A stretch of 64,000 nucleotides of DNA from Marinicauda algicola (GTDB lineage Bacteria; Pseudomonadota; Alphaproteobacteria; Caulobacterales; Maricaulaceae). The notes beneath the pieces were generated by a model, which saw only the letters and a list, made by a program, of their open reading frames with translations, ran no database searches and was not told where the DNA came from. The stretch spans positions 2,047,501-2,111,500 of the forward strand of contig NZ_CP071057.1 in the NCBI RefSeq assembly GCF_017161425.1. Direction: 5' to 3'. Of this stretch, positions 35,586 through 48,481 are shown piece after piece. Each line of letters opens with the position of its first letter. The first letter of the stretch is position 1. The translations under genes were made by a program, and so were the position numbers.

Positions 35586-36503
35586 ATGAGCGCAAGCGAC
35601 CGTTCCGAATGCCGCGGCTGGCACGCTGCCGCCGAACTCCTGACGAAGGACGAGGGCGCGCCGCTCGCCCTGCTCGGCGCGCCGCTGGCCGAGCGCTCGC
35701 TCACCCCGGGGCGCTGCGACCTCGCGCCGGGCCGCGTGCGCGAGGTACTCAAGCGGTTTTCCGTATACGATCTCGAAGCCGGACTCTCGCTCGATGCGCT
35801 GACGCTCTTCGATGCCGGCGATCTCGACCTGAAGGCGGTCTCGCCCGCCGACGCCTTCACCCCGATCCGCGATCGGCTCGCCGCGCTGACGAGGAATCGC
35901 GAACTCACCCTCCTGCTCGGCGGCAACAATGCCGTGACCTGGCCGGGCGTGCATGGGCTCGGCCCGCTGGAGCGGACGGGGCTCGTCACGCTCGATGCCC
36001 ATTTCGACCTGCGCGACACCGATTGCGGGCCGCTCAACGGCAATCCGGTCAGATGCCTGCTCGAGGACGGGCTTCCCGGCGCCAACATCGTCCAGATCGG
36101 CCTTGCCCCCTTCGCCAACACGCGGCGTATGCACGAGACGGCGAGGGCGAACGCCATCACCGTATTCACGGCCGCGGATGTGCGCGAGCGGGGCATTCTG
36201 GAGGTCATCGACGCCGCGATCGGCACGCTCCAGGGCCGCGTCGACCGGGTCTATGTGGATTTCGACATCGACGTGATCGACCGGGCCCAGTGCCCCGGCG
36301 CGCCGGGCGCGCGCCCCGGCGGGATGGCGGTCACCGACTTCTTCGCCGCGGCGCGAAGGCTCGCGGCCTGGGACAGGGTGAAGGCGGTCGATCTCACCGA
36401 GTTCGATCCCGGCCTCGATGTCGCCGACATCACCGCGCTCACCGCCGGGCGTTGGGTGTGCGAGATCCTCGCCGGCTACGCGGGTCGCGGCGGCCGCGCC
36501 TAG
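35586..36503 (+). CDS. hutG: Formimidoylglutamase (arginase superfamily)
   Basis: 305 residues of the arginase/agmatinase superfamily. VTLDAHFDLRDTD provides the DAHxD metal ligands and VYVDFDIDVIDRAQCPG the DxDxxD ligands; DLTEFDP completes the active site. Where arginases have GGDHS the protein reads LLGGNNAVTWPG, replacing one metal-binding His with Asn; I recall a comparable change in Bacillus HutG. In hut context it converts formiminoglutamate to glutamate and formamide. Start chosen at ATG 35586, since earlier frame would read through the divergent promoter. Its stop shares CTAG 36500-36503 with the convergent EAL gene. Confidence 0.88.
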   Translation: MSASDRSECRGWHAAAELLTKDEGAPLALLGAPLAERSLTPGRCDLAPGRVREVLKRFSVYDLEAGLSLDALTLFDAGDLDLKAVSPADAFTPIRDRLAALTRNRELTLLLGGNNAVTWPGVHGLGPLERTGLVTLDAHFDLRDTDCGPLNGNPVRCLLEDGLPGANIVQIGLAPFANTRRMHETARANAITVFTAADVRERGILEVIDAAIGTLQGRVDRVYVDFDIDVIDRAQCPGAPGARPGGMAVTDFFAAARRLAAWDRVKAVDLTEFDPGLDVADITALTAGRWVCEILAGYAGRGGRA

Positions 36504-39169
36504 CGGGTGACTTCCTTCAGATCCGGGCCCGGGCGTTCCGCCGGCGCTGCGGGCAAGCGCCCGGCCTCCTCCACGCGCCTGAGGAAGTCGATGAAGCCGT
36601 CCAGCGGCAGGGCCTTCGACAGGCCGTAACCCTGCGCCCAGTCGGCGCCGAGCAGCTTGAGCAGGGCCAGCGCCTCGTCGGTCTCCACCCCTTCCGCGGT
36701 CATCGCCAGGCCCAGATTGTGGGCGAGGTCGACGGTGGATTTCACCAGCATCTGGTCGCGCTTGCTCTCGGCGACATGGGTGACGAAGGCGCGGTCGAGC
36801 TTCAGCTCGTGGCTCGGCAGCATCTTCAGATAGGCCAGCGAGGACATGCCCGAGCCGTAATCGTCGATGGCGAGCCTGATCCCGGCCCTGACCCATTTCT
36901 CCAGATTGGTCATCGCCTGTTCGGGATCGGCCATGATCGCGGTCTCGGTGACCTCGAAGGTGATCTCTCCCGGGGCCCCGCGGCAGATGTTGAGCGCGCG
37001 CTCGGCGAGTTCGGAATCGTTGAGCACCGCGCCGGACACGTTCACCGACAGCGCCATCTCGATGCCGGCCTCGTAGAGGCGTTTCTGGTCGCGCACGACC
37101 TGCTCGATCGACCATTCGGTGACGGCGCGGATATGGCCGGTCTTCTCCGCCAGCGGGATGAAGTCGTTCGGCGGGATGTTGCGGTCGCCGTCGCGCCAGC
37201 GGCACAGCGCCTCGGCCGCGCCGTAGCGCCCGGTGCGAAGGTTGAGCTTGGGCTGGTAGTGCAGGCTCATCGCGCCGTTGCGCGTGGCGTCCACCATGCG
37301 GCTCATCAAGGTGAGGTTTTCCGCCGGGTTGCCGTATCTCTGCGCATCGAAGGCAGCCACGGTCTGGTAGGCGTCGCGGGCCTGGCGCACGGCGATGTTG
37401 GCCTTGCGCACGCAGGCCTCGCCCAGCGTGTCGATGCCGATGCCGGCGATGACCGAGACGTCGATGTCGAGATCGTCGACGCGCAGCGGCGCGGCGAAGC
37501 AGGCGCGCATGCGCTCGGCTTCCTCGCTCGCCGCCGCCTCGTCGCCGTGGGGCAGCAGCACGCCGAGCACGCCCGGCGAGACGATGCCGATCAGGCGGTC
37601 GAAGCCGGCCGACTTCAGCCGCGCGGCCATCTCCGCCTTCAGGCGCGAGACGGTGGCGAAGCCCAGCACGCCGCGCAGATGGGTGTGCCGCTTGATTTCC
37701 AGCGCGATGACCGTGACCGGATGACCGAGGGCGGAGGCCGCCTCTCCGGCGGCGCGCTCCAGCGCCTTGCGCGAGGGCAGGCCCGTCTCGGCGTCTTCAT
37801 ACAGGGCGCGCGAGAGCACGCGCTGGCGTTCGCGCGCGACCCTCTGGCGCCACAGCGCGATGACGATTCCGATCAGGGACAGCATGAGCAGCGCCCCGAC
37901 GAGCATCAGGCGCTGATTGGCGCGGGCCCGCGCGAGTTCCGCGTCCTGGGCCAGGCGCTGGGAGCGCAGCTGCTCGATCTCCAGTTCCTGCTCGGCGAAG
38001 TCGAACTCCGCGGCCATCAGCGCGTTGTTGGCCGAGGCCGCGACGTCGCGGCCCTCGTCGTCGAGGCGCTTGAAGGCGCGCAGGTGCTCGGCGGCCTGCC
38101 GCCACAGGCCGAGCACGGTGTAGATGTCGGCCGCCGCCTCGTGGAATTCGCGGAAATGCTGCGGCGTCCCGCCGATATCGATGCCCTGGAAGGTGCGCTC
38201 GATATCGGTGCGCGCCTGCCGGTAGTCGCCGCGCCCGTAGGCGGTCTGCGCCCGCGTCCCCCACAGGAAGCGGGTCCATTCCGCGCCCTCCTGGCCATCG
38301 GCCTTGTCGAAGGCGGCATCGAGCGCCTCGTCCGCCGCATCGAAACGGCCGAAGGCGACGTGCAGCGAGGCGATATTGTTCAGGATGCGCGCTTCCAGCG
38401 TGCTGCTGCCCATCTCGGAGGCGATGGCGAGCGCCTGCTGGTACTGGTCCAGCGCCTCGTCGTAGCGGCCGAGCTCGCGATAGGCGTTGCCGCGATTGTT
38501 GAAGGCGGCGAGATCGAGCGAGGCGTCGTCGGTGAATCGCGCAGTCGCGTCGTCGAAATAGGAGATCGCGCGCTCGTACTGGCGCGCATCGTTATAGATC
38601 GAGCCGATCGACTGCAGGATGATCGCTTCCGACCGGGTCTGGCCGATCTGGCGATACACCTCGTAGGCGGTGCGGAAACGGCCGAGCGCCCCGCCATGGT
38701 CGCCGGTCTGCTGGCTCGCGCGGGCGGCGGAGACGAGCAGGTCGGCATAGAGCTTGGTCGGCTCCGGAGCGGCGCCGAGCGTCTCGAGCGCGCGCTCGGC
38801 CACGGGCCGGGCCTCGAGCGGCCGGCCGAGCCGGGTCAGGGCTTCGGACTGCAGCCACCAGGCGGTGACGAGCCCGATGTCCTGCTCGGCCGGGGTCGCG
38901 AAATCGAGGGCGAGCGCGGCGGCGCGTTCGGCATGGGCGAGCGCGGCGTGCGGGTCGGCCATCATGATGGCGCGCGCCTCGTTGACCGCAGCCTCGAACG
39001 GTGTGGCCTGCACCGCTTCTTCCCCGGCGGGCAGCTGCACGGCCAGGGCCGCGCCGGCAGGTCCCGTGGCCGCGAGCCCGCCCGCGGCGAACGCCACGCA
39101 CAGGCCGCGCGCCAGACTGCGGACGGTCCGGCTCCGGAACGCGGGGCGGTTCGGCATCGGGGAACGCAT
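36500..39169 (-). CDS. TPR sensor with degenerate GGDEF and intact EAL domain
   Basis: 889 residues. A signal/anchor region at the N-terminus is followed by TPR-like helical repeats (about 60-400, for example NNRGNAYRELGRYDEALDQY), a coiled segment, one transmembrane helix (about 420-442), a degenerate GGDEF domain (455-620) and an EAL domain (630-870). The GGDEF signature is replaced by SPGVLGVLL, so cyclase activity is unlikely. The EAL domain keeps EALCRW, SVNVSG, EVTETAI, IDDYGSG, KLDRAF, AEGVET and AQGY, so c-di-GMP hydrolysis is likely. The TPR part would sense in the periplasm. Start ATG at 39169; 39157 is an alternative. Confidence 0.9.
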   Translation of the reverse strand: MRSPMPNRPAFRSRTVRSLARGLCVAFAAGGLAATGPAGAALAVQLPAGEEAVQATPFEAAVNEARAIMMADPHAALAHAERAAALALDFATPAEQDIGLVTAWWLQSEALTRLGRPLEARPVAERALETLGAAPEPTKLYADLLVSAARASQQTGDHGGALGRFRTAYEVYRQIGQTRSEAIILQSIGSIYNDARQYERAISYFDDATARFTDDASLDLAAFNNRGNAYRELGRYDEALDQYQQALAIASEMGSSTLEARILNNIASLHVAFGRFDAADEALDAAFDKADGQEGAEWTRFLWGTRAQTAYGRGDYRQARTDIERTFQGIDIGGTPQHFREFHEAAADIYTVLGLWRQAAEHLRAFKRLDDEGRDVAASANNALMAAEFDFAEQELEIEQLRSQRLAQDAELARARANQRLMLVGALLMLSLIGIVIALWRQRVARERQRVLSRALYEDAETGLPSRKALERAAGEAASALGHPVTVIALEIKRHTHLRGVLGFATVSRLKAEMAARLKSAGFDRLIGIVSPGVLGVLLPHGDEAAASEEAERMRACFAAPLRVDDLDIDVSVIAGIGIDTLGEACVRKANIAVRQARDAYQTVAAFDAQRYGNPAENLTLMSRMVDATRNGAMSLHYQPKLNLRTGRYGAAEALCRWRDGDRNIPPNDFIPLAEKTGHIRAVTEWSIEQVVRDQKRLYEAGIEMALSVNVSGAVLNDSELAERALNICRGAPGEITFEVTETAIMADPEQAMTNLEKWVRAGIRLAIDDYGSGMSSLAYLKMLPSHELKLDRAFVTHVAESKRDQMLVKSTVDLAHNLGLAMTAEGVETDEALALLKLLGADWAQGYGLSKALPLDGFIDFLRRVEEAGRLPAAPAERPGPDLKEVTR

Positions 39170-39257: not shown

Positions 39258-39343
39258 AGCAACGGACGCTTCCCCCGGGGTGAATACTTGAGGTTTCAAA
39301 GCGCGCGCCAAGTAGAATAGGCGCATTCTGCAAGACAAACGGA

Positions 39344-39374
39344 CGCCGCCGCCCGCAGGTCACGGGCGGCGGCG
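39344..39374 (-). terminator. Terminator of the subtilase gene
   Basis: Perfect 12-bp GC stem (39344-39355 with 39363-39374) lying 22 bp beyond the subtilase stop. On the minus strand it is followed by TCCGTTTGTCTTG, moderately T-rich. Confidence 0.75.
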
Positions 39375-39395
39375 CCGTTTCGGGAGCCTTTCGGC

Positions 39396-42233
39396 CTAGT
39401 AGTCGAGGGTGAAGCGCAGGCCCGAGGCGATCTCGCGGTCTGCCTCGAACCCGGCCTCGCCGGCGAGCATGGCCCGGCCGAAGAGGCTGAGATCGCCCCG
39501 GTCGCCGAACAGCGGGATCGCGTAGAGCAGCTCCGCCGCGATCGGGCGTTGTCCGCCGAGCGCCCAGCTCTGGCTGTCCAGGGCCAGCGTTCCGCTCTGC
39601 CGGTCGGCGATGCCCATGGCCCGGTATTCCAGCGAGCCGCTCTCCTGGTGCAGCGTCTGGATCACGCTCGCCCGGACCGCGTCGGAGCGGGTGATGATCC
39701 CATCGCGGCGCAGGGAGACCTGGAAGGCGGTCGAGACCGGCGTCTCGCCGATCGAGATCGCCCGCGTGTCAAACCCGTCCGCCGCCGTGCGCGCCGCGGT
39801 CGCAGAAGCGCTGAGGCTGAGGCGGGCCGGCAGCAGGGCCTCGGCCCCGACGGTGACCGCATCGGTCGCCGCGCCGCCGTCGAGATCGAGCACGCCCGTA
39901 CCCTGGGCGCCGAGCAGGCCGGTCGCCTCGTGCAGGTGGGTGTAGCCCAGCGTGATCACGAAGCGGTCGGACACCTCGTGGCTCACCCCGGTGAAGAAGG
40001 CGATCGCCTCGTACACCGAGAGCCCGTCGAGCACCTCGTCCTCGGCCCCGGTGATCGGGTTGACGAAGGTGTACTCGTCGCGTCCCGAGCTCACGCCGAA
40101 GGAGACGCGGGTGGCGTCCCCGACCCGCATGCCGCCGGCCATGTAGGCTCCGCCCGAGGCAAAGCCGAGCACAGGGTTGACCCCGCCGGTCTCCGGCCGG
40201 TGGTCGGAGAACAGGGCGAAGCCGTCCTGGCCGTTCAGCGCCAGCGCGCCCTCGCCGAAGCCGATCTGGAACTCGCGTCCCGAAGCGGTGTCGGTGAAGC
40301 GGAAGCCGGTCTGGATGTCGAGTTCGCCATCGGCATCGAGATCGAGCGGATCGGCCGGTGCCGCGAAGGCGGACATCTCGAAATCGCCGCGGCGCGAGAT
40401 CGTCCGCGTGAAGCCGAGCGTGTCGGAGAAGGCGGTTGCGTTGAAGCCGGTCGCCGCCTGGGTCGAGGCGTATTGCGCCGACTTGCTGCTGCCGCCGCCC
40501 TGGCCCTTGGCCGGCTTGATCACGATGTCGTCGAGCGAGATCGTGAAGTCGCGATAGGTGCCGTTTATCGTCTCGAAGACGGTCACCGCGTTCTGCGCGG
40601 CCGAATGGAAGCGCAGCGCGCCGGAAACATAGCCGAGCGTCACGACGTCGCGTGCGGTCGAGGTCTCGTCGAGATAGAAGAGAGACCTCTCGTCCAGCGG
40701 CCTCATCGCCGCGTCGACATTGAGCAGGCCCCAGCCATAGACCTCGTCGACGCCGGGGACGCCGAGATCGGTCGCGGAGCGGAACAGGATGTCGGCGACG
40801 TCGCCGGGCTCCAGCCAGCCCCAGCGTCCCTTGATCAGGGCCGCGGCGCCGGAGACCATCGGAGCGGCGAACGAGGTGCCGGACATGCGCGCCGTGCCGC
40901 CCTGGCCGTCGGAGACGAGGATCAGCTCGCCCGGCGCGACGATGAAGCGGTCCATCAGCCGGTTGCCGGCCTGGCAGGTGCCGTTCACCGTCAGGCACGC
41001 CGTACCCGGACGATTGGAGAAGGAGGAGATCTCGCCCCACGGATTGACCGAGCCGACGATGATCAGGTTCTCCAGCACCGGCACGCCCGTCCAGTCGAGA
41101 TCGGCGGTCTGGGTGGCGCCGTTGTTGCCCGCGGCGATCACGAACAGCATGTCGCCGACATGGGGCGCGAGCTGCTGGTCGGAGAACACGCTCGCCCAGT
41201 CCTGGTGCAGCGTCCACCCGGGCACGCCCAGCGACATGTTGACGATGTCCGACTGCAGCTGGCCCAGGCGCACGACGCCGTCGCGCACGCTCTGCCAGCT
41301 CGCCGTCAGGCTCGCATCGAACGGGTTGTAGACATTGATCGTCACGCCCGGCGCGATGCCCATCACGCCCTGGCCGTCATGGGCGGCACCGATGATGCCG
41401 GCCACGGCCGCGCCGTGATTGAAGTTCAGGTAGTCGCGCGTGCCGTGGGTGATGCGCAGATTGACCCCGTCGGTGCCCTGGGTGGAGAAGTCGAGCACGC
41501 CGACGAGCGCCCCGGAGCCGCCGCCGACGGCTTGCGACAGGGCAGGCGACCAGTGGATGGCGGGCATCCAGTGATCGGGCCGGTCCGCGCCGGAATAGGC
41601 CATCAGCCCGTCGTAGAAGTCGAGGAAGAAGGCCCCGCGCTTGTTCGCCGACCAGCTGTCGAGCGTCGACAGGTCGGCGAGGTCCAGCTCGTAGGCGTCC
41701 AGGAGGCCCTGCAGGAAGGCCTCGCGGAAGGACAGGCCGGTCGCGTCGCGGACCGCCGGCCCGAAGACCGCCTCGGCCTGCGCGAACATGGTCTCCAGCT
41801 GGGTGGCCAGCGTCGCGTAATCGCCCGAGGTCGTGTCGGAGAAGGCCCCGATATCGCCCCAGAACGCGTTGATGTCGCCGTAGAACGGTCCGATATCGCC
41901 CCAGAACGCACCGATATCGCCCCAGAAGGCGGCGATGTCGCCGTAGAACGGGCTTATATCGCCCCAGAACGCGGCGATGTCGCCGTAGAACGGGTTGATG
42001 TCGCCCCAGAAGGGAGAGATGTCCCCCCAGAAGGGCGAGATATCGCCGTAGAACGGGTTGATATCGCCGTAGAACGGGTTGATGTCGCCGTAGAACGGAT
42101 TGATGTCGCCGTAATAGGGCAGGACGAACTCGGTGTCCTGCGTGTCCTGTCCCGCGGCGCCCGGCGCCGCGCTCGCGGCGATCGCGCCGGCCAGGGCCGA
42201 CAGCGCCACGCCTCTGTACAAGAAGTCCCTCAT
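39396..42233 (-). CDS. Secreted S8 serine protease with 13 aromatic heptapeptide repeats and C-terminal beta-rich domain
   Basis: 945 residues. Signal peptide (MRDFLYRGVALSALAGAIAA, cleaved near residue 28), then residues 41-131 made of 13 tandem heptads [YW]GDI[NSAG][PA]F, then a helical stretch (about 139-215), then a subtilisin domain. The triad is complete: Asp248 (GVLDFS), His273 (NHGAAVAG), Ser454 (MSGTSFAAPMVSG), with oxyanion Asn370 (AAGNNG). From about residue 600 the protein is beta-rich and ends in RFTLDY, like an autotransporter barrel with an aromatic last residue, though a classic barrel is not certain. AGGGG precedes the ATG at 42233. Divergent from a tryptophan halogenase. Confidence 0.85.
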   Translation of the reverse strand: MRDFLYRGVALSALAGAIAASAAPGAAGQDTQDTEFVLPYYGDINPFYGDINPFYGDINPFYGDISPFWGDISPFWGDINPFYGDIAAFWGDISPFYGDIAAFWGDIGAFWGDIGPFYGDINAFWGDIGAFSDTTSGDYATLATQLETMFAQAEAVFGPAVRDATGLSFREAFLQGLLDAYELDLADLSTLDSWSANKRGAFFLDFYDGLMAYSGADRPDHWMPAIHWSPALSQAVGGGSGALVGVLDFSTQGTDGVNLRITHGTRDYLNFNHGAAVAGIIGAAHDGQGVMGIAPGVTINVYNPFDASLTASWQSVRDGVVRLGQLQSDIVNMSLGVPGWTLHQDWASVFSDQQLAPHVGDMLFVIAAGNNGATQTADLDWTGVPVLENLIIVGSVNPWGEISSFSNRPGTACLTVNGTCQAGNRLMDRFIVAPGELILVSDGQGGTARMSGTSFAAPMVSGAAALIKGRWGWLEPGDVADILFRSATDLGVPGVDEVYGWGLLNVDAAMRPLDERSLFYLDETSTARDVVTLGYVSGALRFHSAAQNAVTVFETINGTYRDFTISLDDIVIKPAKGQGGGSSKSAQYASTQAATGFNATAFSDTLGFTRTISRRGDFEMSAFAAPADPLDLDADGELDIQTGFRFTDTASGREFQIGFGEGALALNGQDGFALFSDHRPETGGVNPVLGFASGGAYMAGGMRVGDATRVSFGVSSGRDEYTFVNPITGAEDEVLDGLSVYEAIAFFTGVSHEVSDRFVITLGYTHLHEATGLLGAQGTGVLDLDGGAATDAVTVGAEALLPARLSLSASATAARTAADGFDTRAISIGETPVSTAFQVSLRRDGIITRSDAVRASVIQTLHQESGSLEYRAMGIADRQSGTLALDSQSWALGGQRPIAAELLYAIPLFGDRGDLSLFGRAMLAGEAGFEADREIASGLRFTLDY
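41841..42113 (-). repeat. 13 tandem 21-bp units encoding [YW]GDIxxF heptapeptides
   Basis: The 273-bp tract in the subtilase gene is 13 consecutive 21-bp units. Units 1-4, 7, 9 and 12 start with Tyr, units 5, 6, 8, 10, 11 and 13 with Trp; GDI and the final Phe never vary, while positions 5-6 read NP, SP, AA, GA, GP or NA. The first four DNA units are almost identical, so recent duplication or gene conversion is likely, and length may vary between strains. Confidence 0.95.
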
Positions 42234-42483: not shown

Positions 42484-43989
42484 ATGCGCCAGGGGCAGAT
42501 CGAACGCATCGTCGTCGTCGGCGGCGGATCGGCGGGCTGGATGGCGGCGGCCGCGCTGGCGAATGCCGCCCCGCGCGAGTGCCGGATCACGCTGGTGGAA
42601 TCGGAGGCCATCGGGATCGTCGGGGTCGGCGAAGCCACCATCCCGCCGATCAAGGTCTTCAACCGGCTCCTGGGCATCTCCGAGGCGGAGTTCCTGCGCG
42701 AGACCAAGGGCAGCTTCAAGCTGGGGATCGAGTTTCCCGGCTGGCGGCGCGAGGGCACGCGCTACTTCCACCAGTTCGGCTCGTTCGGCCGCGAGTTCGA
42801 TCTCGTGCCGATGCACCAGTACTGGCTCAAGATGCGCCATGAAGGCGACGACACGCCGATCGAGGATTTCTCCATGGCCTGGGCGCTGGCGCGGCGCAAC
42901 CGGTTCGCCCCCCCGGTCAGCGATCCGCGCATGGTCCAGTCCACCCACGACTACGCCTATCATTTCGACGCCGTGCTCTACGGCCAGTTCCTGCGCCGCT
43001 ATGCGGAGGCGCGCGGGGTCGTGCGCGTGGAGGGCAAGGTGGCCGACGTGCGCCTCGATGCGGAAAGCGGCGACATCGCCGGGCTGACGCTCGATGACGG
43101 GCGCACGGTGGACGGGGAGTTCTTCCTCGACTGCACCGGGTTTCGCGGCGTGCTCATCGAGGGCGCGCTGCAGACCGGATATCACGACTGGCGCCGGTGG
43201 CTGCCGTGCGACCGGGCGATCGCGGTCCCCTGCGCGCACGGCGGGGACTTCACGCCCTATACGCGCTCGACGGCGAAGGCCGCGGGCTGGCGCTGGCGCA
43301 TCCCGCTGCAGCACCGCATCGGCAACGGCTATGTCCACTGCAGCGAGTTCATTGGCGAGGACGAGGCGACGCAGGCCCTGCTCGCCGACCTGGATGGCGC
43401 GCCGGAGGCCGATCCGCGCGTGCTGCGCTTCGTCACCGGCCGGCGCAAGATGTTCTGGAACCGCAACTGCGTGGCGATCGGGCTCGCCGCCGGCTTCATG
43501 GAGCCGCTGGAATCCACCTCCATCCACCTCATCCAGACCGGGATCATGCGCCTCATCGCGCTCTTCCCGGACCGGTCGGACAATGCGCTGGCCCGCCGGG
43601 AGTACAACCGCCTGACCGAGGCCGAGTACGAGCACATCCGCGACTTCCTGGTCCTGCACTATCACGAGACCGCGCGCGAGGAGCCGCTCTGGCGCCATAC
43701 CCGCGCCATGGAGATTCCCGACACGCTGCGATACCGGCTCGACCATTACCGCGCCTGCGGCCGGCAGGTGGCGTTCGGCCACGACCTTTTTCCCAACGCC
43801 AGCTGGCTGGCGGTGATGGCCGGCCAGGGTGTCGAGCCGGAGACCTACGATCCCATCGTGGACAAGCGCGACACCCCGTTCCGCGAGCGACTGGCGGGGC
43901 TGAAGCGGTTGATCCATGAAGCCGCGGAGCGCGCACCCGACCATCGCACCGCGCTGAACGCGGTGATGGACGCGGCCAGCGCGGCCTGA
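42484..43989 (+). CDS. FAD-dependent tryptophan halogenase family protein (copy 1)
   Basis: 501 residues. VVVGGGSAGWMAAAALA is the FAD loop with the halogenase-type GGGxAGWM; GVGEATIPPIKVFN follows, and GWRWRIPLQHR is the WxWxIP motif that separates halogenases from monooxygenases. The catalytic Lys is expected in TKGSFKLGIEF and the active-site Glu in PLESTSIHLIQTG. Such enzymes use FADH2, O2 and halide to chlorinate or brominate indole rings; substrates of this Caulobacter/Xanthomonas-type clade are mostly unknown. GGGGGAGG precedes the ATG. It converges on a second halogenase (about one base apart) and diverges from the subtilase. Confidence 0.9.
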   Translation: MRQGQIERIVVVGGGSAGWMAAAALANAAPRECRITLVESEAIGIVGVGEATIPPIKVFNRLLGISEAEFLRETKGSFKLGIEFPGWRREGTRYFHQFGSFGREFDLVPMHQYWLKMRHEGDDTPIEDFSMAWALARRNRFAPPVSDPRMVQSTHDYAYHFDAVLYGQFLRRYAEARGVVRVEGKVADVRLDAESGDIAGLTLDDGRTVDGEFFLDCTGFRGVLIEGALQTGYHDWRRWLPCDRAIAVPCAHGGDFTPYTRSTAKAAGWRWRIPLQHRIGNGYVHCSEFIGEDEATQALLADLDGAPEADPRVLRFVTGRRKMFWNRNCVAIGLAAGFMEPLESTSIHLIQTGIMRLIALFPDRSDNALARREYNRLTEAEYEHIRDFLVLHYHETAREEPLWRHTRAMEIPDTLRYRLDHYRACGRQVAFGHDLFPNASWLAVMAGQGVEPETYDPIVDKRDTPFRERLAGLKRLIHEAAERAPDHRTALNAVMDAASAA

Positions 43990-43990
43990 G

Positions 43991-45520
43991 CTATTCGGCC
44001 GCCTGCGGCGCGGCGCAGCAGCGCGCTATATGGTCGGCGTGGCTGGGCAGCTTGGCCGCCGCGCCGGTGACGATCTGGCGGATATTGGCGAGCATGTCGC
44101 GCAGCTCGGCCTCGCTCAGCTTGTCGGCCATCGGATGCCAGGCCTGCGGCGTCAGCCCCTGGCCGTGCATGACCTGCAGCCAGCTCGCCTCGGTGAACAG
44201 GTCCTGCGCGTCGCGATAGATCCGGCCCGACGCCTTGAACAGGGCGATCTTGCTGGTGAGCGTCTCGGGCACGTCCATCTCGCGCACATCGATCCAGAAG
44301 GGCGAATCGGTGCGCTCGTTCAGGTGATAGTGCAGGATCAGGAAGTCGCGGATGCGCTCGAACTCCAGCGTCACCTGGCGATTGTACTCGTCGCGCTCCG
44401 CGTCCGCGATCGGGCGCGTCGGGAACATCTGGATGAAACGGCTGATCCCCGACTGTACGAGATGGATGGAGGTGGATTCCAGCGGCTCCAGGAACCCGCT
44501 GGCCAGGCCCAGCGCCAGGACGTTCCTGTTCCAGAACTTCCGGCGCCGGCCGGTGGTGAAGCGGATGAGGCGCGGTTCGGCGAGGGCCTCGCCTTCCAGA
44601 TTGGCGAGCAGGGTCTCGCGGGCCGTGTCGACATCGACATAGCCGCTCGAGAAGACGTGCCCGTTGCCGGTGCGGTGCTGCAGCGGAATGCGCCACTGCC
44701 AGCCCGCCTCGCGGGCGATGGCCTGTGTGAAGGGGCGCGGCGGCCGGGTATTGCGGCTGGGGACCGCCAGGGCGCTGTCGCATTTCAGCCAGCGCGACCA
44801 GTCCTCGTATCCGGTCTTCAGCGCGCCCTCGATCAGCAGCGCCCGGAAGCCCGAGCAGTCGACGAAGATCTCGCCGGCGACCTCGCGCCCGTCCTCCAGG
44901 CGCACGCGCTCGACATCGCCGCTCTCTGGATCCTGGATCACCTCGACGATCCGGCCTTCGGTGCGCCGCGCGCCGCGGGATTCCGCGTAGCGGCGCAGGT
45001 ACTGGCCGTAGAGCGCGGCGTCGAAATGATAGGCGTAGGCGACACCCCCCAGCGGCGAGGAGCCGAGCCGCTCCATCGGCGCGAACCGGCCCGCACGCGC
45101 GGCCTGGGTGTTGACGCAGTAATCCCACAGATCGCCGCCATAGCCTTCCGCCTGGGCGCGGAAGACGTGGTGGTGAAAGTGGATCTGGTTCACCGACAGG
45201 CCGATGGAGCCGAAATTGTGCAGATAGCTGTGGTCGAGCCGGCGCCAGTTGATGAACTCGATGCCGAGCTTGAAGGAGCCGTTGGTTCCGGCGACGAAGT
45301 CGGCCTCGTCGATCTCCAGCGCCCGGTTGAGATTGCGGATCTGCGGGATCGTGGCCTCGCCGACCCCGACGATCCCGATGGCCTCCGATTCCACCACCTC
45401 GACCTCGACCAGCCGGCCGAGGAACTTGACCAGCGAGGCGGCCGCCATCCAGCCCGCCGTCCCGCCGCCGACGACAACGACCTTGCGCGGCGCTTCCCGG
45501 TGAGATTGCGGCTTCGCCAT
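43991..45520 (-). CDS. FAD-dependent tryptophan halogenase family protein (copy 2)
   Basis: 509 residues, paralogous to the gene at 42484. FAD loop VVVVGGGTAGWMAAASL, then GVGEATIPQIRNLN, GSFKLGIEF with the catalytic Lys, GWQWRIPLQHRTGNGHVF with the WxWxIP motif, and PLESTSIHLVQSG with the Glu. It carries an insertion around residues 115-145 (HHHVFRAQAEGYGGDLWDYC) not in copy 1. It is on the same strand as the TonB-dependent receptor and 130 bp downstream of it, beyond a strong terminator. The reducing partner (a flavin reductase) is not in the window. Confidence 0.9.
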   Translation of the reverse strand: MAKPQSHREAPRKVVVVGGGTAGWMAAASLVKFLGRLVEVEVVESEAIGIVGVGEATIPQIRNLNRALEIDEADFVAGTNGSFKLGIEFINWRRLDHSYLHNFGSIGLSVNQIHFHHHVFRAQAEGYGGDLWDYCVNTQAARAGRFAPMERLGSSPLGGVAYAYHFDAALYGQYLRRYAESRGARRTEGRIVEVIQDPESGDVERVRLEDGREVAGEIFVDCSGFRALLIEGALKTGYEDWSRWLKCDSALAVPSRNTRPPRPFTQAIAREAGWQWRIPLQHRTGNGHVFSSGYVDVDTARETLLANLEGEALAEPRLIRFTTGRRRKFWNRNVLALGLASGFLEPLESTSIHLVQSGISRFIQMFPTRPIADAERDEYNRQVTLEFERIRDFLILHYHLNERTDSPFWIDVREMDVPETLTSKIALFKASGRIYRDAQDLFTEASWLQVMHGQGLTPQAWHPMADKLSEAELRDMLANIRQIVTGAAAKLPSHADHIARCCAAPQAAE

Positions 45521-45649: not shown

Positions 45650-48481
45650 TTAGCGGCGATAGCTGACGCGCAGGGTGTACGTCGTGCCGTACTCTTCCCA
45701 GTTCCGGGCGAGGCGTTCGTCATCGTTGATGTACGTCCCGAACCGCTCGTCGGTCAGGTTGTTCGCCTGGAGCTGGACCGTGAGGCCGCTGGCCGGGCCG
45801 TCGACGAATTCGTAGCCGATCTGGGCGTCGATCACGCTTTCGTCGAACACGCGCCGGAAATCGGGCTGCCCGGTGAAGTCGGGCAGCTCGCCGAGGAAGT
45901 CGGACCGGAAGCGGTTGGAAATCCGGGCTTCCCAGCCGCCGCGCTCGTAGTACACGGTGATGTTGCCCAACTCCTCCGAAAGCCCCGGGATGTTGATCGG
46001 GGACGGCGCGGTGGAGGGCTGGATCTCGCTGTCGGTCACCGAATAGCTCGCGAACAGGCCGAACCCTTCGAATTGCTCCGGCAGGAACGCCTCGGCCGGC
46101 AGGCTCAGCGAGAATTCAAGCCCCCGCAGCCAGCCGCCATCGGCGTTCTCGGCGGCGAAGAAGCGGCCGTCCGAGACGCCCGGATTGGCCGCAGAAGTAC
46201 CGGCCCCGAAGATCTCGTCGACGATCGCCGTGGTGTCCACGTCGCGTCCGACATTGCCGAAGACCCAGTTGTCGATCTCCTTGTGGAACGCGGCGATCGA
46301 GACATAGCCCCCGCCATCGGCGAAGTAGTGCTCGAGCGAGATGTCGAACGAGTCCGCCATGTAGGGGCGAAGCTGCGGATTGCCGCTGCCGCCGCTGATG
46401 CAGACCGCGTTCGGGTCGCTCGGGTTGGGCGTGTATTCGAACTGGTTGGTGATCGGGTTGATCCGGCAGACCTGGCTGTTGATGCCGATCCCGACACTGG
46501 CCCGCATGTCGTCCATGCGGGGACGCGCCAGGGTACGCGCCGCACCCAGGCGCAGGAAGGTGTTCTCCCCCAGTTCGAACGCCAGGTTCAGGCTGGGCAG
46601 CACCTCGGTATAGGTGTCGCCGTCGGTGGCCACCACCGGGAGGAAGGCCAGCCCGTTGGCGATCGGTCCGGTCGAGCTCTGGTCGGTGTGCACGACCTGA
46701 ACGCCGGCATTGCCCCGCACCGGCACGCCGATATTGGTGTCGATGTTGGCCTGGAGGTAGGCGGTCGTGATCTGCTCTTCGACCTGCCATTGCTTCTGCG
46801 GAATGAAGCCGAGCGGCAGCGGACGCAGCGTGTAGATGCCGTCGCGCAGCAGGGCGGCCGGATCGTAGGCGATCATCTGCACGTTCGAGACGAAGAAGAT
46901 ATCCGTCGGATTGAGCAGGTATTGAGTGGGGATCGCGAGCTCGTCGACGCCGACGAGGTCGACGAAGTCCTCGATCGTTTCGCGCTGCTTCTCGCGGTCG
47001 GAGAAGTAGACGCCGGCCTCGACCGAGCTCAGGAAGCCCCGGTCGAATTCACGCGTTGCGCTCAGGCGCAGCGCGGAGAGCTGGTCGTCCGTGTTCAGCG
47101 TCTTGCGGAAGCCGTCCTGGCCCCAGCCGCCCGGGTCGGTGAGCACCATCAGGCTGGGATCGGCGTAGTCGGATCCGACCTGCGAGTGGAACCGGTAGCG
47201 GTCGCCGGTGAAGGCGAAGTCCAGCTGGTCCACCGCGGCCGTGTAGTTCTGCCAGGCGCCCACGCCGAGGCCGGCATAGGATTCGAAATCCAAGGCGGAC
47301 CGCTCGACGCTGGAGTGGCTGAGATCGCCCTCGAACAGCCAGCTTTCGAACGGACGCCACTGGACGTTCCAGCCCACCGAGAACAGCTCGGCCTCGCGCT
47401 CCTGGATATCGTTGCGTCCGACCGCGAAGACCGGATCGAACGTGCCGGCCGTGACCAGCCCGTCCTCGACCTGCGCGCCAAGCAGCTGAAGGCCCGAACC
47501 GCCCCCGAGCCAGGTGCCCGTCGGGAATTCCGCGCCGCGGCGCACGCCGCCGTCGGTGAACTCGGTGTACAGGAGATCGAGCGAGGTGTTCAGCGTGGCG
47601 TTCGGCTCGAATTCGAGCGTTCCGAGATAGGCGGTCCGATCCAGGTCGCGGGATTCGGAGAACATCTTGAAACAGCCCGGCGCCTGGGCACCCCCGCGGT
47701 CGTCGAAGTTGCAGATCTCGTACTTCTCGCCCTGGGTCGGGGTGTTCTGGTCCGCGATCGACAGCACGATGCCGATGGTGTCGTTGGCGAACTGGTTCAC
47801 GTAGGTCCCGGTCAGGCGGTAGCCCCTCTCGTCGAACCCGTCGTTGAGCTCGCCGTTGGAGTTGTACTCGTAGCTGGCGGACAGGTTCACCGCACGCTCG
47901 CCGAAGGCCAGCGGGCGGATGGTGCGCAGGTCCACCGTGCCGGCCAGGCCCTGGGCCACCAGCTGGGCGTCCGGCGTCTTGTAGACGAGCGCCTGGCTGA
48001 TCAGCTCGGAGGGATACTGGTCGAATTCCACGCCGCGGTTGTCGCCGGCGGTCACCTGCTCGCGCCCGTTCAGGAGCGCCGTGGTGTAGTCCGGGCCGAG
48101 ACCGCGAACCGAGAGCACCTGCGCCCGGCCGCGCACGCGCTGGGCGGCGAGGCCCGGCAGGCGCGCCAGCGCTTCGGCGATCGAGACGTCCGGCAGCTTG
48201 CCGATGTCTTCGGCCGAGATCGCCTCGACGATCTGGTCGCTCTCGCGCTTGGCCGCGATCGAGGAGCGGATGGACGAACGGATGCCGGTGACGACGATGA
48301 CGTCGCCATTGGCGCCTTCGGCGGACTCCTCCTCGCTCGCATCGGCAGGAAGCGCATCACCCGCAGGCGGCGGATCCTGCGCGTCCTGGGCCCAGGCCGG
48401 GCCGGAGGCGAGAAGAAGCAGCGAGCTCGCGGCGGCGCTGCTCAGGAGCCATGAACGGCGAAACGGTTTCACAGATTGCAT
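45650..48481 (-). CDS. TonB-dependent outer-membrane receptor (Caulobacter/Xanthomonas type)
   Basis: 943 residues. Signal peptide through LLASGPAWAQ, a Glu/Ala-rich linker, the TonB box region GDVIVVTGIRSS, and a plug domain with IVEAISAEDIGKLPDVSIAE and ALARLPGLAAQRVRGRAQ, the pattern of the Caulobacter-Xanthomonas receptor group that includes the maltose receptor MalA. The remaining 700 residues form a 22-strand barrel ending in YTLRVSYRR, with aromatic last strand. Neighbouring LacI, MFS and GH13/GH97 genes make maltodextrin the likely ligand. It is divergent from the GH13 alpha-glucosidase across a region with a LacI-type operator. Confidence 0.92.
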   Translation of the reverse strand: MQSVKPFRRSWLLSSAAASSLLLLASGPAWAQDAQDPPPAGDALPADASEEESAEGANGDVIVVTGIRSSIRSSIAAKRESDQIVEAISAEDIGKLPDVSIAEALARLPGLAAQRVRGRAQVLSVRGLGPDYTTALLNGREQVTAGDNRGVEFDQYPSELISQALVYKTPDAQLVAQGLAGTVDLRTIRPLAFGERAVNLSASYEYNSNGELNDGFDERGYRLTGTYVNQFANDTIGIVLSIADQNTPTQGEKYEICNFDDRGGAQAPGCFKMFSESRDLDRTAYLGTLEFEPNATLNTSLDLLYTEFTDGGVRRGAEFPTGTWLGGGSGLQLLGAQVEDGLVTAGTFDPVFAVGRNDIQEREAELFSVGWNVQWRPFESWLFEGDLSHSSVERSALDFESYAGLGVGAWQNYTAAVDQLDFAFTGDRYRFHSQVGSDYADPSLMVLTDPGGWGQDGFRKTLNTDDQLSALRLSATREFDRGFLSSVEAGVYFSDREKQRETIEDFVDLVGVDELAIPTQYLLNPTDIFFVSNVQMIAYDPAALLRDGIYTLRPLPLGFIPQKQWQVEEQITTAYLQANIDTNIGVPVRGNAGVQVVHTDQSSTGPIANGLAFLPVVATDGDTYTEVLPSLNLAFELGENTFLRLGAARTLARPRMDDMRASVGIGINSQVCRINPITNQFEYTPNPSDPNAVCISGGSGNPQLRPYMADSFDISLEHYFADGGGYVSIAAFHKEIDNWVFGNVGRDVDTTAIVDEIFGAGTSAANPGVSDGRFFAAENADGGWLRGLEFSLSLPAEAFLPEQFEGFGLFASYSVTDSEIQPSTAPSPINIPGLSEELGNITVYYERGGWEARISNRFRSDFLGELPDFTGQPDFRRVFDESVIDAQIGYEFVDGPASGLTVQLQANNLTDERFGTYINDDERLARNWEEYGTTYTLRVSYRR

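Follow-up and report, generated by a model that had tools for sequence, protein, structure and literature searches.

The 64,000-nucleotide stretch of the Marinicauda algicola genome analysed here (contig NZ_CP071057.1, forward-strand positions 2,047,501 to 2,111,500; hereafter the window) carries on its reverse strand two adjacent genes, one for an S8 protease preceded by an array of heptapeptide repeats and the other for a transmembrane sensor with a tetratricopeptide repeat (TPR) domain. That the array and the TPR sensor are linked into one system is well supported. The protease gene (39396..42233), defined by its open reading frame and translation, encodes 945 amino acids from its ATG. Its product begins with a signal peptide at approximately residues 1–29 (42147..42233), judged by eye from a positive N-terminus, a hydrophobic stretch, and AxA sites. 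There follow 13 heptads of the form [YW]GDI[NSAG][PA]F at residues 41–131 (41841..42113; translation and Tandem Repeats Finder); a conserved helical pro-region at residues 135–213 (41595..41831), known from alignments and modelled mainly as helices in blocks with a predicted local distance difference test (pLDDT) of 69–90; a putative pro/mature junction, L-M-A-Y↓S-G-A, at residues 210–216 (41586..41606; alignment of 40 members); the S8 catalytic domain (40674..41594; PF00082, alignment, and structure match to subtilisin); and a C-terminal beta domain at residues 545–945 (39399..40601), predicted from AlphaFold2 and VIA-align to be a porin-like outer-membrane barrel. This order is the usual one in the family, the beta domain ending in Phe or Tyr.

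The sensor gene (36500..39169) lies immediately downstream on the same strand and encodes 889 amino acids, comprising a TPR domain, a transmembrane segment, a degenerate GGDEF region, and an EAL domain; Pfam gives TPR and EAL matches and no GGDEF match. The TPR domain spans 373 amino acids (37901..39019, from alignment), the transmembrane segment lies at approximately 37862..37927 (hydropathy peak 2.86), and the EAL domain (36614..37291; PF00563, E 1.8e-58 at residues 627–852) is of the cyclic di-GMP (c-di-GMP) phosphodiesterase type, with its EALCRW motif present. Between the two genes is a terminator-like hairpin of 16 pairs (39342..39376), a weak signal given three such sites in the window and 1.6 expected from shuffled sequence.

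PF00082 (E 6.4e-36 at residues 272–502) is the sole Pfam domain found in the array protease. It is matched by all 40 aligned members, which also keep the Asp/His/Ser triad and the oxyanion Asn (D248, H273, S454, and N370), and places them in peptidase family S8. The modelled S8 domain matches subtilisin with a Z-score of 33.6. The best NCBIfam model, a mycosin (E 9.7e-25), reached 87 bits against a cut-off of 279, and that identity was rejected. Alignment A3 took in 39 of the 46 proteins, omitting L059, L065, L077, L078, L081, L090, and L099.

An initial annotation, made from the DNA alone, had described residues 41–131 (nucleotides 42113..41841) as 13 unbroken units, and the translation confirms it. 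In order they are YGDINPF (three times), YGDISPF, WGDISPF, WGDINPF, YGDIAAF, WGDISPF, YGDIAAF, WGDIGAF, WGDIGPF, YGDINAF, and WGDIGAF; GDI and the final Phe occur in 13/13, and each unit opens with Tyr or Trp, again as claimed. The further statement that no single insertion interrupts the period holds for this protein and not for the family, in which successive units follow at a spacing of exactly 7 in 497 of 527 cases and otherwise of 8, 12, 13, 14, 15, or more (47 proteins, the window protein and 46 others, counted with a pattern that needs Gly at position 2). Tandem Repeats Finder scored the array at 278 (period 63) and 213 (period 21), so it is far from chance. The units are not recent copies of one another, since their codons differ synonymously (94 differences over all unit pairs) as well as nonsynonymously (143). 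An array of period 7 thus does lie between the signal peptide and the S8 domain, and no Pfam or NCBIfam domain spans it, in agreement with the earlier remark that no named domain was known; the only matches within it, Defb50 (E 1.5) and the ribosomally synthesized peptide TigB (RiPP; E 0.2), were dismissed as chance. A beta-solenoid, one of the structures first suggested, found no support. In the AlphaFold2 model from 40 sequences, residues 41–100 have a mean pLDDT of 25–38 in 10-residue blocks with isolated bridges only, and residues 105–127 are rendered as helix at pLDDT 48–72; low pLDDT in the array neither proves disorder nor excludes a fold, as a thin alignment can also cause it.

Copy number proved variable when units were counted across relatives. 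By the strict pattern 46 of the 47 proteins contain 6 to 18 units, and 2 are seen in L090, which is truncated at its start; the L037 array has 26. A whole-protein search of 99 genomes of the GTDB neighbourhood (that of M. algicola included) found some S8 match in 41 and the array protein in 15, in one of these (G005) solely in fragments at the ends of contigs. Scanning the GTDB representative genomes yielded 48 named loci, two of which (L093 and L100) gave no open reading frame by our filter. The hosts are Maricaulis, Marinicauda, Oceanicaulis, Hyphobacterium, Euryhalocaulis, Aquisalinus and other Parvularculaceae, Phenylobacterium, Erythrobacter, Sphingomonas, Sphingomicrobium, Qipengyuania, and unplaced bacteria of mostly alphaproteobacterial label. 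No array locus came from viral contigs (16 pattern matches, none confirmed), and tblastn of protease P0001 against the plasmid database PLSDB gave no match at 1e-30.

The entropies of positions 1 to 7, over 550 units from 46 proteins (units accepted if three of four typical residues were present; L090 dropped), are 2.51, 0.30, 1.13, 0.38, 2.58, 0.92, and 0.24 bits: Gly2, Ile4, Pro/Ala6, and Phe7 are near-fixed and positions 1 and 5 are free. Several arrays are uniform inside one protein yet differ between lineages. Divergent units include DLHIDPL (L042), YGKIAPF (L043), WGSVSPF (L133), YGIIRPF (L128), SGSIDPF (L137), RGVVDPF (L142), YGNVRSF (L135), TGYIRAF (L140), and YGFIIPV (L143), which retain mainly [IV]4-x-[PAS]6-[FLV]7. 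The commonest unit of each protein (three of 67 loci, L041, L153, and L155, gave none) makes 42 distinct units, with Phe at position 7 in 38 and Gly at position 2 in 38; positions 4, 6, and 7 helped to choose the register, so that only position 2 is unbiased, and at least one entry is an artefact, namely GRRVQPL of the broken member L078. The array is an old, family-wide feature. At one locus (L042:4152-7937) a very long DLHIDPL array is broken by other segments and has its own TPR-kinase downstream.

In the sensors, the TPR profile PF13424 (E 4e-20 in the window sensor) matched 9 of 9 further partners scanned, the TPR domain is 368–374 amino acids long in 57 of 59 partners, and a transmembrane segment lies at the matching place in 53 of 54. 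Output domains vary: classified by motif, 33 of 54 sensors are of the GGDEF-EAL class and 21 are histidine kinases, labels with which Pfam agrees in the 10 partners scanned. The GGDEF motif is intact in 17 of the GGDEF-EAL class and not in 16, including the window protein. On a quick tree of the proteases, from which L056, L060, L097, and L150 (short or odd sensor reading frames), L041 and L078 (no motif), and the duplicates L038, L147, and L160 were omitted, the output label changes four times, at least two of the changes being forced by well-supported branches, and the pairing persists. Because the kinases lack the c-di-GMP input of LapD-type receptors, a shared sensor logic is more likely to run outside-in. 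Seven of 15 array-less TPR-kinase loci (L174, L177, L178, L179, L182, L183, and L184) are flanked by a stand-alone EAL-like gene, and several by a single receiver-domain gene, as judged by eye; the kinase branch may for this reason also feed c-di-GMP.

The pairing of the two genes was followed through 67 distinct loci, a set that omits the duplicates L038, L147, and L160 as well as L099 and L163, which have no S8 match. A sensor homolog is present at 60: downstream on the same strand at 54, upstream at 4, and on the opposite strand at 2. Seven loci have none. At five of these the contig breaks off inside the protease gene or shortly behind it; the remaining two (L055 and L159) belong to genomes with a second array-protease gene that is adjoined by a sensor. 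As a control, 20 of the 38 array-free S8 matches were examined, and a TPR domain was found at none of these 20 loci, 3 of which gave only kinase-type matches near the locus edge. In about half of these array-free proteases (L101–L120) a lipoprotein-like N-terminus is followed by long poly-proline stretches; an aromatic C-terminal residue is seen in most.

Co-occurrence agrees with linkage. Sensor and array protease are found in the identical 15 of the 99 genomes, that of M. algicola included, and neither in the other 84; in 199 genomes of a second family the protease occurs in 18 and the sensor in 29, and in a class sample of 385 genomes in 4 and 6, respectively, the protease-positive genomes lying in both cases entirely within the sensor-positive ones. 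These searches used different thresholds, and because the genomes are related by descent the counts do not represent independent events.

The strongest evidence that the array acts as a ligand, though it comes from one genus, is the occurrence of arrays beside the sensor without a protease, which is seen in two genomes. In one (G636, L181:6996-7592), a 198-residue exported protein of YGDIIPLTAEG repeats, part of whose array is N in the record, is encoded directly upstream of a TPR-kinase of the window sensor's family, with a terminator-like hairpin between the two genes. In the other (G483, L190/L186), of the same genus, an exported YGEIIPLTASNG array begins at one contig end, and at a second contig end the final part of such an array, including its stop, directly precedes another TPR-kinase; we infer that the two pieces are one gene. 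G483 also has a fused array protease with YGEIIPL units adjoining its own sensor. The search with the YGDIIPL array covered four genomes of this genus. Together, the partner gene, the divergent arrays, and the protease-free arrays turn the reading of the array from a structural segment to a ligand.

AlphaFold2 modelled the full array protease, with 39 relatives, at fair to good confidence in the pro-region and S8 domain, and the C-terminal domain alone at pLDDT 85.7 and predicted TM-score (pTM) 0.85, with 17 strands of at least 8 residues from residue 608 on. Of 998 chains aligned to this domain by VIA-align, the best 50 ranked porins first (Z 15.6–17.1 over 252–283 residues), so that the model, if not a determined structure, has a porin-like fold. 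Among Pfam matches of the 40 members at E up to 1, porin families are absent except for BBP2 (putative beta-barrel porin-2; one member, 0.021). Because the predicted barrel is porin-like and porins have both termini in the periplasm, the array and protease probably face the periplasm. Two members (L123 and L126, both G415) are array proteases of about 640 residues with basic ends, about 300 residues shorter than the others and apparently without a barrel; outer-membrane anchoring therefore seems dispensable.

Some subtilase autotransporters have a C-terminal outer-membrane barrel, and the protein could be a surface protease of this kind, with the array as an adhesive or flexible surface tail. 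Exported S8 proteases of the autotransporter type, such as Ssp, SphB1, and EprS, are indeed known (PMC9977779 among others), and each of the 40 aligned sequences has an aromatic last residue (Phe in 39, Tyr in 1). The EprS profile matches at E 6.4e-10, but its score falls well short of the cut-off and the match lies in the protease part. The type Va translocator barrel PF03797, however, matches none of the 40 at E up to 1, and YadA_anchor (type Vc) matches one at E 0.1. Type Va barrels have 12 strands. The best 50 rows of Foldseek and of VIA-align are porins and other barrels, among which no autotransporter barrel was recognised, though one may still be present; chain 8q0g_A (Foldseek row 24), from a BAM-EspP complex, is by its length probably BamA. 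Unlike the known subtilase autotransporters, the protein has a barrel that is porin-like in the model, an N-terminal heptad array, and a linked TPR sensor. As the partner looks like a periplasmic sensor and the G415 proteins apparently lack the barrel, we regard a surface tail as quite improbable; the predicted barrel and the periplasmic-type sensor point to the periplasm rather than to the adhesive segment that the initial annotation had also entertained.

The closest of the early readings was that of a propeptide removed by the protease. What stands of it is that the heptad fits an S8 cleavage site in one register of seven; the cut itself is a prediction. Ala-Ala-Pro-Phe is the classical subtilisin test substrate. 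The S1 and S4 subsites of natural subtilisins show a strong preference for hydrophobic residues (described in part of PMC7935941). Over 759 units of 65 arrays, only a cut after position 7 combines P1 in FYLMW with a hydrophobic P4 (product 0.94, all other registers at most 0.07), a comparison that is partly circular, as the unit filter favours this register. So cut, the heptad presents Ile/Val at P4, any residue at P3, Pro/Ala at P2, and Phe at P1, and its conserved positions read as a subtilisin P4-P2-P1 site. The putative pro/mature junction, placed where model residue 216 aligns with residue 1 of mature subtilisin, has the consensus L-[MN]-x-[YF]↓[STA]-G (L210 in 38, Y/F213 in 37, and G215 in 38 of 40). 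Junction and array share an aliphatic P4, an aromatic P1, and Gly at P2', a likeness that is support rather than proof, the junction having been picked after the array was known. That the protease releases heptapeptides is a specific and testable proposal, to which we would give roughly an even chance.

The same resemblance to S8 sites would be expected of a regulatory pro-segment, in which the units serve as decoy substrates that occupy the protease or delay its activation while the sensor responds to another product of the protease. The array does adjoin the pro-region, and in L143 and L157 the arrays extend almost as far as the catalytic domain, little of the pro-region being left (the L143 array, in G575:C5, consists of YGFIIPV units). 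Protease-less arrays, however, occur beside the same kind of sensor; we judge this role improbable.

The sensor domain is a candidate peptide receptor. Its profile matches peptide-binding TPRs, namely LGN/Pins, kinesin light chain, and RapF (E 8.5e-10), as well as designed TPRs, and profile A5 aligns with residues 106–261 of Rap3T at 27.6 bits, setting sensor N215 (A5 numbering) on Asn226. N215 is invariant in 33/33 sensors, and in both the TPR domain and this Asn the sensors agree with RRNPPA receptors. In Rap3T, Asn226 is the pheromone anchor (part of PMC11343458), and RapJ Asn225 bonds the peptide main chain (part of PMC3601965).

Linkage, co-occurrence, and the groove Asn would fit equally well if the ligand were never cut. 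The intact array could then be a multivalent tail that spans the periplasm to the TPR sensor and reports how far the outer-membrane protein is assembled or in what state it is, with other substrates for the protease; its 91 residues, if extended, could bridge a periplasm of commonly accepted dimensions. Against such a tether stand the protease-free arrays beside a sensor, which have no outer-membrane anchor, and the two apparently barrel-less G415 members, and it leaves the match of the invariant positions to P4, P2, and P1 unexplained. We consider it unlikely, if still worth keeping in view.

Subtilisin, Epr, and Vpr reportedly produce competence and sporulation factor (CSF). The proposed system would work most like the RRNPPA systems with tandem propeptides, but it lacks their effector domain and location and is for that reason not counted among them. 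It resembles Rap3T/Phr3T in having a tandemly duplicated secreted propeptide, extracellular proteolysis, and a TPR receptor for a short peptide (part of PMC11343458), and the groove Asn is conserved in the alignment of Rap3T with the window sensor. The RRNPPA precursor, in contrast, is a separate small protein, whereas here it is mostly fused to its own S8 protease and barrel; the RRNPPA receptor is cytoplasmic, has an N-terminal three-helix bundle, and sees imported peptide, whereas here a transmembrane TPR receptor of alphaproteobacteria has a GGDEF-EAL or histidine-kinase output, an EAL or a HisKA-HATPase following the predicted transmembrane segment.

Other systems share single traits. The yeast alpha-factor is made from a tandem-copy peptide precursor, and the likeness lies in the many copies of one short peptide per exported precursor; in the fused form here, by contrast, the units mostly abut without a spacer and share one chain with the protease. 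The periplasmic domain of LapD is of another type than TPR, and the protease class of LapG differs from S8. In the LapD/LapG pair, too, a transmembrane c-di-GMP protein is tied to a periplasmic protease (parts of PMC3032545, PMC3032553, and PMC4359373). The corresponding part of the sensor here is a TPR domain rather than that of LapD, and the swapping of its output with histidine kinases argues for outside-in rather than inside-out signalling. We found no account of the repeat or of the array-TPR pairing in the open-licence PMC literature searched. Each part has a fold that is already known; we found no known system in which they are combined in this way.

We therefore propose, at about even odds, that the array is a tandem peptide-ligand precursor for the adjoining TPR sensor. 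The array protein would be exported and anchored in the outer membrane by its predicted porin-like barrel, with array, pro-region, and S8 protease in the periplasm. The S8 domain would cut after Phe7 of each unit (P4 Ile, P2 Pro/Ala, P1 Phe), freeing YGDINPF-type heptapeptides; the periplasmic TPR domain would take the peptide, or the exposed array, into its groove; and the bound sensor would switch its cytoplasmic output, c-di-GMP turnover here and a histidine kinase in other lineages. A fuller and more tentative version, which we think possible but not probable, is an alphaproteobacterial form of peptide signalling in which the array precursor is fused to its maturation protease and barrel, lineage-specific heptapeptides are read by a periplasmic TPR receptor with swappable outputs, and, as the protease-free precursors would show, the peptide itself is the signal. 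Such a system may serve cell-cell communication.

Several observations weigh against the proposal. Cleavage by the array's own protease and binding by the TPR domain are both inferred steps. Asn is common at the N215-equivalent position of peptide-binding TPRs, so the groove Asn would indicate a capability rather than a specificity, and array and sensor domain show no charge complementarity, both being acidic (36 Lys and Arg against 58 Asp and Glu in the sensor). In L042, P1 is Leu in the array and Phe at the junction, so that array and junction do not vary strictly together. The barrel is a model, for which Foldseek gives weak and mixed matches (BamA and a CirA model lead, then porins, with E from 1.3e-4 and TM-scores of 0.25–0.47 among the best 50 rows). 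The putative periplasmic placing of the TPR domain is drawn from the transmembrane segment and a signal-like N-terminus, and an N-terminal hydrophobic peak exceeds the threshold in 35 of 54 partners, the window protein not among them. The protease-free arrays come from two genomes of one genus, one array being pieced from two contig ends. A search of the 199 genomes with the window array gave matches below E 1e-6 solely in the same 18 fused-protease genomes, a weak test in that the query missed the known G636 array and may overlook stand-alone arrays. Lastly, 11 of the 29 sensor-positive genomes of the second family lack the array protease, and when the 15 loci of their unpaired sensors and of extra sensor copies were scanned for the motif, one stand-alone array came to light (L181); the sensor may accordingly have other ligands.

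If correct, the proposal would describe a Gram-negative, TPR-based peptide signal that leads straight to c-di-GMP or phosphorelay control and whose precursor, protease, anchor, and receptor all come from two neighbouring genes. A repeat that lacks annotation in the genomes of marine bacteria and sphingomonads would be accounted for, a TPR sensor family would gain a ligand class, and the idea would reduce to a directly testable prediction: one short peptide, one receptor domain, and one conserved Asn. Even if cleavage is wrong, a pairing of array and TPR sensor with swappable outputs is undescribed in the literature searched.

Two tryptophan-halogenase genes (PF04820) and a TonB-dependent receptor gene adjoin the array protease gene in the window (42484-43989 on the forward strand, 43991-45520 and 45650-48481 on the reverse strand). 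A link to the array protease was rejected, since tblastn at 46 loci found the halogenases at none (E 1e-10) and the TonB receptor at only two (L053 and L054). Two family members are disrupted: L041 (G070) has an in-frame stop between pro-region and protease, and L078 (Phenylobacterium J367) has a broken reading frame.

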